From Chromobacterium violaceum ATCC 12472 (GTDB taxonomy: Bacteria > Pseudomonadota > Gammaproteobacteria > Burkholderiales > Chromobacteriaceae), in contig NC_005085.1 of assembly GCF_000007705.1 (NCBI RefSeq), forward strand, positions 1,240,001 to 1,304,000: 64,000 nucleotides of DNA, in the 5' to 3' direction. The stretch's first letter is position 1, and every line of letters begins with the position of its first letter. Below, one piece after another: positions 47,537 through 47,849 of the stretch. The notes under the pieces were generated by a model. It was not told the DNA's origin. It worked only from the letters and a program-made list of their open reading frames with translations, and did not search any database. Made by a program: the position numbers and the translations under genes.

Positions 47537-47554
47537 ACCCACAGCTTAATTGAA
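47518..47554 (-). other. protospacer-like target of the degenerate crRNA-like element
   Basis: On the minus strand, TTC (47554-47552), the type I-C PAM, is followed from 47551 by AATTAAGCTGT. The spacer-like sequence after the degenerate repeat at 47781 reads AATTAGGCTGT. Positions 1-5 and 7-11 match and only position 6 differs. In type I Cascade every sixth base of the guide is flipped out and not read, so the seed match is functionally complete. Beyond position 11 the match is poor (14, 15 and 17 only), as expected for binding without Cas3 cleavage. The target overlaps the end of cas3 and the -35 box of the promoter below. Confidence 0.6.
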
Positions 47555-47577
47555 ATTTTTAAGAAAGGGGCTATCGT
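47550..47577 (+). promoter_or_regulatory. promoter P1 in the cas3-cas5c gap (target of the crRNA-like element)
   Basis: TTGAAA (47550-47555), a 16-bp spacer and TATCGT (47572-47577). The -35 box contains the PAM and the first bases of the protospacer-like target, so Cascade binding would block the promoter. It would transcribe the mini-ORF, the crRNA-like element and, by reading through the terminator, cas5c onward. Confidence 0.5.
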
Positions 47578-47593
47578 GTATTTATGCTTGCAT

Positions 47594-47608
47594 GGGGAGT
47601 GCCTCCCG
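47594..47608 (+). promoter_or_regulatory. ribosome-binding site caught in a hairpin
   Basis: GGGAG (47595-47599) pairs with CTCCC (47603-47607) around a three-base loop. This hides the only Shine-Dalgarno sequence in front of ATG 47611, suggesting restricted translation. Confidence 0.4.
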
Positions 47609-47610
47609 GT

Positions 47611-47724
47611 ATGGACGATCAAAGAAAACAAGTGAAGTTGACATTTCGATGTCAGATTCGTAATGGGCTATTGGACTTCCTGCTGAGAGGGCTGGTTTTC
47701 GCGTTGCCGGCATTGTCGCGTTAG
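47611..47724 (+). CDS. 37-aa mini-ORF in the cas3-cas5c gap (candidate CreT-like toxin gene)
   Basis: The frame encodes a 37-residue peptide: a basic N-terminal half (MDDQRKQVKLTFRCQIR) and a hydrophobic C-terminal half (NGLLDFLLRGLVFALPALSR). It resembles no family I know but has the shape of a small membrane-active peptide. Codon use is unlike the GC-rich neighbours: two AGA, one CTA and one CGA in 37 codons. An in-frame ATG at 47584 would coincide with the predicted transcription start. By position, between a Cascade-targeted promoter and a degenerate CRISPR repeat, it corresponds to CreT in CreTA modules, whose toxin RNAs or peptides are silenced by Cascade. Toxicity is inference only. 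Confidence 0.4.
   Translation: MDDQRKQVKLTFRCQIRNGLLDFLLRGLVFALPALSR
47638..47666 (+). promoter_or_regulatory. promoter P2 of the crRNA-like element, with overlapping dyad
   Basis: TTGACA (47638-47643), a 17-bp spacer and TAATGG (47661-47666). The dyad TGACATTTCGATGTCA (47639-47654) overlaps the -35 box and could be an operator. Transcription from about 47673 to the terminator gives an RNA of about 165 nt. Confidence 0.45.
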
Positions 47725-47838
47725 TTTCCTTAGTCCTTTCGGGAGTCTCATGGTGGAGAAATTAACGTGCGGATTGAAACAATTAGGCTGTTCGTACTAG
47801 GAGCAGGCCCATGGAATGATCCATGGGCCTGCTTTTTG
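47673..47838 (+). ncRNA. crRNA-like regulatory RNA with degenerate CRISPR repeat (CreA/CreR-like)
   Basis: At 47766-47780 the sequence CGTGCGGATTGAAAC matches the 3' end of the I-C repeat (GCGTGGATTGAAAC): the last 10 bases are identical and 13 of the last 15 agree. The GC stem of the genuine repeat is missing. A spacer-like stretch starts at 47781 and its first 11 bases match promoter P1 next to a TTC PAM except at position 6. The 3' end is a perfect intrinsic terminator. This is the layout of CreA or CreR RNAs, which load into Cascade and repress a toxin gene or the cas operon through a partial match. Handle retention suggests Cas5c can still bind; how the 5' end would be processed without the stem is unclear. 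Confidence 0.6.
47802..47837 (+). terminator. strong intrinsic terminator directly upstream of cas5c
   Basis: AGCAGGCCCATGGA (47802-47815) and TCCATGGGCCTGCT (47820-47833) form a perfect 14-bp stem with an ATGA loop, then TTTT. It ends one base before the cas5c ribosome binding site, so transcription of cas5c from P1 or P2 depends on read-through. Confidence 0.93.
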
Positions 47839-47849
47839 AGGAGGGCATG

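Follow-up and report, generated by a model that had tools for sequence, protein, structure and literature searches.

Modules of the CreTA type have been published for CRISPR-Cas subtypes I-B, I-F and I-E, and CreR regulators for I-B, I-E and V-A (PMC8501985, PMC9458426, PMC10097628, PMC13131331, PMC12055562). In the I-B modules of Haloarcula hispanica and Halobacterium hubeiense, the repeats are degenerate, the PAM is TTC and the target lies at the creT promoter; CreA of H. hubeiense is described as matching its target at positions 1-5 and 7-11 and tolerating changes at positions 6 and 12, and an arrangement with two repeats is described as common for CreA genes (PMC8501985). The element considered here, from the type I-C locus of Chromobacterium violaceum ATCC 12472, shares the seed rule and the TTC motif (the PAM given for I-C in PMC8406640), and its guide is most like that of H. 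hispanica, which has one repeat and ends in a terminator (PMC8501985). The I-B modules as described are archaeal, processed by Cas6 and equipped with RNA toxins that sequester tRNAs, whereas the I-C modules would depend on Cas5c and carry a hydrophobic open reading frame (ORF) in over half of cases. The I-F CreTA of Acinetobacter likewise occupies the gap between cas3 and the cascade genes (cas3-csy1, ~400 nt) and has a mini-CRISPR and a nearby target, but its description includes a CC PAM, a non-canonical seed, a bactericidal RNA toxin and a Csy4 hairpin (PMC10097628). In the cas3-casA gap of Citrobacter rodentium (I-E), there is likewise a translated small toxin, a crRNA-like antitoxin and a promoter-proximal target; however, the antitoxin lies upstream of the toxin and is encoded on the other strand, the PAM is ATG, and the likeness is one of description only (PMC12055562). 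CreR (I-B, I-E, V-A) and CrePA also use a crRNA-like guide with a partial match to a promoter, but CreR is described as controlling cas genes and as generally uncoupled from a toxin, and CrePA as relying on a toxin protein that usually bears a KilA-N domain (PMC13131331, PMC12737573).

The Acinetobacter paper states that the earlier creTA genes all surround cas6 (PMC10097628), and a search for the term "I-C" in the main texts, supplements excluded, of PMC8501985, PMC9458426, PMC10097628 and PMC12737573 found no occurrence. No I-C CreTA was present among the literature matches listed. The catalogue of crRNA-like elements that Shmakov and colleagues published in 2023 (NAR) may already include some from I-C. 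Type I-C is a common subtype without cas6. Judged by its sequence, the element between cas3 and cas5c in C. violaceum is a CreTA-type module in this Cas6-less subtype, a reading of the gap that we hold to be very probable.

The cas3-cas5c gap of Chromobacterium violaceum

The window, a stretch of 64,000 nucleotides from the genome of C. violaceum ATCC 12472 (one contig, 4,751,080 bases), holds a complete type I-C locus of cas3, cas5c, cas8c, cas7c, cas4, cas1 and cas2 (Pfam, PADLOC), with its Cas3, 5, 8, 7, 4, 1 and 2 products matching I-C models or general cas models in PADLOC (Table 1). The gap between cas3 and cas5c measures 313 nt and was correctly described as unusually long in the original prediction: in the two genomes of the same genus that have Cas5c (loci L084 and L085; genomes G025 and G026) it is 28 and 31 nt, and 82 of 134 gaps surveyed below measure 100 nt or less. 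On the plus strand, P1 is followed by the 37-aa ORF, a stem abutting the handle, the handle, the guide, a 17-bp hairpin and then cas5c. A known structured RNA was considered as the content of the gap and rejected, since an Rfam search of 47400-47950 gave nothing at E up to 1.

Table 1. Features of the type I-C locus (positions count from the first base of the window).
Feature	Position	Strand	Basis or remark
cas3, type I-C, 735 aa	45329..47536	+	Pfam HD/DEAD/Cas3-like C; PADLOC Cas3c
Target (protospacer seed), AATTAAGCTGT, read 47551 down to 47541	47541..47551	-	10/11 match to guide
P1, sigma-70-like promoter, TTGAAA-16-TATCGT	47550..47577	+	consensus match only
TTC PAM of target	47552..47554	-	directly precedes target (47554-47552)
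37-aa ORF, putative creT, apparently interrupted	47611..47724	+	resembles N-terminal half of Azotobacter vinelandii ORF
Second open frame, with hydrophobic segment, ending just before handle	47664..47765	+	17-aa hydropathy 2.14
psi-R1 stem, arms 47717-47728 and 47758-47769, abutting handle	47717..47769	+	putative Cas5c processing site
Degenerate 3' handle of I-C repeat, CGTGCGGATTGAAAC	47766..47780	+	pattern occurs once in the genome
Guide segment (psi-S), with the seed, AATTAGGCTGT, as its first 11 nt (47781-47791)	47781..47801	+	
17-bp hairpin ending in short T run, terminator-like guide-RNA end	47799..47836	+	where relatives have psi-R2
cas5c, processing nuclease and handle-binding subunit	47850..48518	+	Pfam Cas5d (scan from 47823); PADLOC Cas5c
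cas8c	48515..50290	+	Pfam, PADLOC
Open frame containing cas7c (matches from about residue 50)	50160..51167	+	Pfam, PADLOC
CRISPR array, ~28 copies of repeat GTCGCGCCCAACGCGGGCGCGTGGATTGAAAC, final copies degenerate	53342..55123	+	

The handle, the seed and the TTC-flanked minus-strand target on which the original prediction rested were re-found in the gap, with 10 of 11 bases pairing between guide and target and the single mismatch at position 6. Both the PAM-plus-seed pattern TTCAATTANGCTGT (at the gap target) and the handle pattern CGTGNGGATTGAAAC occur once in the whole 4.75-Mb genome. The gap shows two marks of a CreTA module: an ectopic degenerate repeat with a spacer-like segment near or within the cas operon, and a seed that is complementary (positions 1-5 and 7-11) to a site with a PAM close by, at a promoter known here as a consensus match only. 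As had also been proposed, the target covers the -35 of P1, in that target and PAM overlap it. P1 is the sole sigma-70-like site from a scan of 47400-47950, a result that is weak alone given the number of such sites in shuffled sequences (mean 0.4, sd 0.7). The psi-R1 fold forms a 12-bp stem adjoining the handle, and only 1 of 300 shuffles was equally good; the terminator-like hairpin at 47799-47836 was not reported by the pattern scan of 47400-47950. There was no usable C. violaceum transcriptome study among the literature matches listed.

Several minor features were noted by the way. A second promoter-like site, TTGACA near 47638, was seen by eye, as was a perfect inverted repeat, TGACAT-TTCG-ATGTCA, at 47639-47654 within the 37-aa ORF; the two overlap, and TTGACA could be a promoter -35 for the guide. 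Within the array, two adjacent units at 54157-54292 share the same repeat and spacer sequence, a sign of spacer duplication, a repeat near the array start (53408-53459) is fused to a second, partial repeat, and the degenerate repeats lie at 54955-55123.

Guide and target in other cas3-cas5c gaps

The original prediction proposed aligning related gaps for co-variation of handle, seed and target. Since only two of the other 18 genomes of the genus have a Cas5c match (both without the module), covariation was examined outside the genus. Loci from other genomes, mostly proteobacterial, were gathered by Cas5c: the best 80 of at least 572 confirmed candidates from the species collection, with 6, 29 and 29 more from family, class and phylum searches (144 in total). 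Ten of the 144 had no cas3 in reach and were dropped. Among the remaining 134, the 82 short gaps stand beside 45 of 200-1200 nt, 43 of them non-redundant; seven gaps of 101-199 nt or above 1200 nt were left out of the counts. Also removed were L001 and L002, which are the window itself, and two rows almost identical to others, L091 (to L046) and L118 (to L007). The most distant Cas5c relatives (nine rows, on a long branch) may belong to other subtypes, and all were counted as short gaps. A module was called where a handle (GGATTGAAAC, up to two mismatches) was accompanied in the same gap by TTC and then a seed match, over positions 1-5 and 7-11, of 9/10 or better.

By this rule, 27 of the 43 non-redundant gaps contain a module, 18 of them at 10/10; two gaps with TTT-flanked targets (L028 and L061, both 10/10) bring the number of modules to 29. 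A shuffle test, in which the real guides were kept and the gaps shuffled, was run on an earlier set of 36 gaps with no upper length limit: 22 of these have a TTC-flanked seed match of at least 9/10, against 0.14 expected. When guides were tried on the gaps of other loci, 5 of 1806 trials matched. With any PAM allowed, 28 of 34 seed matches of at least 9/10 are flanked by TTC and two by TTT, and two of the remaining four belong to a duplicated guide in L052. Near-kin loci share seeds (e.g., L046 with L092 and L048 with L052), but most seeds differ between loci and each matches its own target, and it is this that constitutes covariation. The co-variation for which the original prediction proposed to look was found in other, mostly proteobacterial, loci. 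The rule found no module in 14 of the 43 long gaps: L037, L047, L051 and L057 have a TTC-flanked match of 8/10, for which chance predicts 1.34 of 36 gaps, and others hold different cargo.

A handle and seed of such short length might be thought to arise fortuitously, and nothing beyond that shortness speaks for chance. Against it stand the shuffled gaps, the trials of guides across loci, the genome-wide uniqueness of the handle and PAM-plus-seed patterns and the psi-R1 stem shuffles, and the covariation in unrelated loci together with the shuffle tests led us to reject this explanation as vanishingly improbable. The original estimate that PAM and seed would coincide by chance about once in 100,000 such gaps is approximately right for uniform bases (620/4^13), although the genome-wide uniqueness and the shuffle test are more telling.

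The distribution of matches along the guide is also informative. Positions 13-17, which lie outside the selection, match in 20, 26, 21, 21 and 22 of the 27 modules, and positions 6, 12 and 18 match in nine of 27 each, near chance. It is established for type I Cascade that the sixth guide base is unpaired, and positions 6, 12 and 18 are all left unpaired by Cascade. The match profile across the 27 modules carries what we read as the signature of Cascade. Between positions 19 and 30 there are 3-9 matches of 27, except at position 21, where 16 of 27 match and for which the Cascade rhythm gives no explanation. In only 15 of 29 modules does the target reach the -35 or -10 of the highest-scoring promoter-like site nearby, as a raw count; this, the matches at position 21 and the 14 long gaps without a module weigh against the CreTA reading.

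Guides in the relatives are also followed by signals that make them look processable. A strong hairpin comes after the guide, at a median of 32 nt, in 27 of 29 modules, compared with 5.1 expected from shuffling; in L046 and L092, this hairpin and its flank are recognisably still an I-C repeat, corresponding to the two-repeat CreA arrangement (PMC8501985). Folds before the handle at other loci were mixed on inspection. Because of the covariation, the TTC PAM, the 6/12/18 mismatch rhythm and the hairpins beside the guide, there is strong support for the original proposal that a CreA/CreR-type guide would direct Cascade to a promoter within its own gap, and we consider guide-directed repression of P1 by Cascade highly likely.

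Cargo of the gap and the possible object of control

Small hydrophobic ORFs, defined as frames between target and handle that have a minimum of 28 aa and include 17 consecutive residues of strong hydrophobicity, are present in 17 of the 29 modules, the window included, against 2.7 expected; the 24 modules scored were those with 90 nt or more in this interval. In over half of the modules, the putative creT is a small hydrophobic, probably membrane, peptide. Gap ORFs are related across genera in L013-L026-L037 and in L029-L033 (shuffle test, z 14 to 25), more weakly in L007-L026 (z 7.2), and by alignment only in L046-L092 and L077-L123; they form several groups, with L027 and L032 lacking a clear relative. 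Third codon positions are the most variable in all six ORF pairs (differences of 24/16/36 in L013-L026), which indicates that the gap ORFs evolve as proteins. None of eight peptides (seven from other loci and the window ORF) matched a Pfam or NCBIfam family above cut-off. A four-member profile (L026, L013, L037, L007) searched in 299 genomes gave nine weak hits and one strong hit, in G607, which is another cas3-cas5c gap (L147; same genome as L118), and gave none in the C. violaceum ATCC 12472 genome. A CrePA of the KilA-N type was rejected for the window, as the 37-aa ORF has no Pfam/NCBIfam match and all plus-strand ORFs within the gap are shorter than 50 aa.

Other modules carry other cargo. 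Loci L014 and L028 have an AGGAGG Shine-Dalgarno sequence and a 9-10-codon ORF with AGG-AGA or AGA-AGA, resembling the published tRNA-sequestering CreT design, and in L048 and L052 a HicA-like gene (assigned by Pfam in L052) follows downstream of a CreA-like guide and its target. A cargo that varies beside a constant guide-target part is the pattern that CreTA predicts. Three alphaproteobacterial modules (L061, L071 and L081) share, by eye, a short basic peptide starting MRR or MARR, possibly a third type of toxin.

The guide might instead repress P1 mainly in order to throttle cas5c-cas8c-cas7c, in the manner of CreR, with the small ORF a leader peptide or irrelevant. The guide reads toward cas5c in 26 of 29 modules, and only three have five or more T in the nine bases after the hairpin, so that P1 transcripts could read into cas5c in the other 26; CreR is moreover reported for I-B, I-E and V-A, and the apparent interruption of the ORF in the window genome would fit a surviving regulator. 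P1 of C. violaceum does lie upstream of cas5c, but a small ORF and a terminator-like hairpin stand in between, and a T run closes the hairpin ahead of cas5c (this run falls inside the stem, so that the window is counted among the 26 without a T-rich tail). Autoregulation of cas genes alone is unlikely for L081, since there the whole module is turned round and reads away from cas5c with the order of target, ORF and handle kept; the guides of L054 and L101 likewise point away from cas5c, although the direction of the guarded gene is ambiguous. Several gap ORFs are, furthermore, conserved as proteins. We regard autoregulation as an improbable main function, though one deserving some weight. The original prediction had left the choice between a toxin and cas autoregulation open; the cargo ORFs and the reversed L081 module favour CreTA over pure autoregulation, and, given the 26 modules without a T-rich tail, a CreR-like effect on cas5c-8c-7c could coexist. 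A toxin-antitoxin role for the I-C module class seems likely.

In the CreTA reading, for which we infer transcription, Cas5c processing, repression and toxicity from the arrangement of the DNA, P1 would drive creT, the small toxin-like ORF, together with creA, a mini-CRISPR of one spacer that lies further downstream on that strand. In type I-C the Cas6 job falls to Cas5c, which would cut at the psi-R1 hairpin and release the handle and guide. Cascade (Cas5c-8c-7c) carrying this guide would then bind its TTC-flanked target at the P1 -35 and block transcription, the short match presumably allowing repression without triggering destruction by Cas3. If Cascade were lost or inhibited, P1 would open and the small toxin would be made wherever the ORF is intact. 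A second control may be superimposed at some loci. The stop codon of the toxin gene lies inside the handle in L007, L012 and L032, whereas the window frames end before the handle. In type I-C, Cas5c cuts at the handle start, and such a cut would separate the toxin message from its stop codon; Cas5c processing and Cascade repression would then be two locks on one toxin. That I-C loci carry widespread CRISPR-guarded modules with membrane-peptide toxins, some of them with two locks of which the RNA-level lock comes first, is a broader and speculative proposal to which we give little credence as yet.

If I-C loci do hold Cascade-guarded toxins, hosts would be addicted to their I-C systems, an anti-CRISPR protein that acts on I-C could set off a suicide switch, and deleting I-C cascade genes in strain editing could bring hidden toxicity. 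The modules also form a sizeable natural data set of guides and targets, showing which guide bases Cascade would use for repression.

State of the module in C. violaceum and other contents of the gap

The toxin-like ORF of the window looks interrupted, which the original prediction had not foreseen. The 37-aa ORF resembles the N-terminal half of the Azotobacter vinelandii ORF (QVKLTFRCQIRNGLLDFLLRG against QSKWTFLCRLQNGRLDFDLRG; alignment z 11.2, a score reached by 0 of 300 shuffles). Its resemblance to the ORFs of L029 and L033 is weaker (z 4.9 and 4.3). Compared separately with the A. vinelandii ORF, the frame at 47664-47765 gave z 0.9 (best 2.0), which is non-significant; several relatives' ORFs end just before the handle, as this frame does. 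The ORF of the A. vinelandii module (L012; seed match 9/10, guide start GGGTTGAAAC-AAGTGG) is uninterrupted, and it had no match when searched against plasmids with tblastn. The toxin gene of C. violaceum looks interrupted because the hydrophobic half expected after the 37-aa ORF lies in a different frame, and, relative to its relatives, the ORF appears split between frames. The split may reflect an old sequencing error, another mechanism or decay. The likelihood of a working toxin in the ATCC 12472 genome is, in our view, well under half.

The split between frames raises the question of whether the module as a whole is a remnant of CreTA, broken in its toxin and kept by drift. In a search of 19 genomes of the genus, the module DNA was found only in C. 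violaceum ATCC 12472 itself and was absent from the other 18, including the two with Cas5c. The module is distributed patchily over a FastTree phylogeny of Cas5c from 131 loci and has apparently changed often by gain or loss, the label needing 23 changes compared with a shuffled mean of 26.6 (11 of 500 shuffles as low). These observations would suit a dead module; however, none of handle, psi-R1 stem, seed, PAM and target is damaged, the seed matches at every one of its 10 contact positions, and the split itself may be a sequencing error, so that drift is possible but unlikely to be the explanation. Under the preferred CreTA reading, guide and target in this genome may outlive a dead toxin or may be kept for the control of P1.

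Genes of other kinds were also encountered in the surveyed gaps. The gap between cas3 and cas5c appears to be a hot spot for toxin-antitoxin genes across L045, L048, L051, L052, L029, L094, L096 and L100: HicA was identified by Pfam match in L052, with HicA-like ORFs seen by eye in L045, L048 and L051; a HicB-like antitoxin was identified in L029 (tested); and Phd/YefM and PIN domains were identified in L094 (tested), with look-alikes seen by eye in L096 and L100. The L003, L023 and L120 gaps, in which there is no qualifying handle with target, contain a related ORF of ~110 aa; the L003 copy had no Pfam match at E 0.001, and by eye the ORF resembles a GIY-YIG nuclease.
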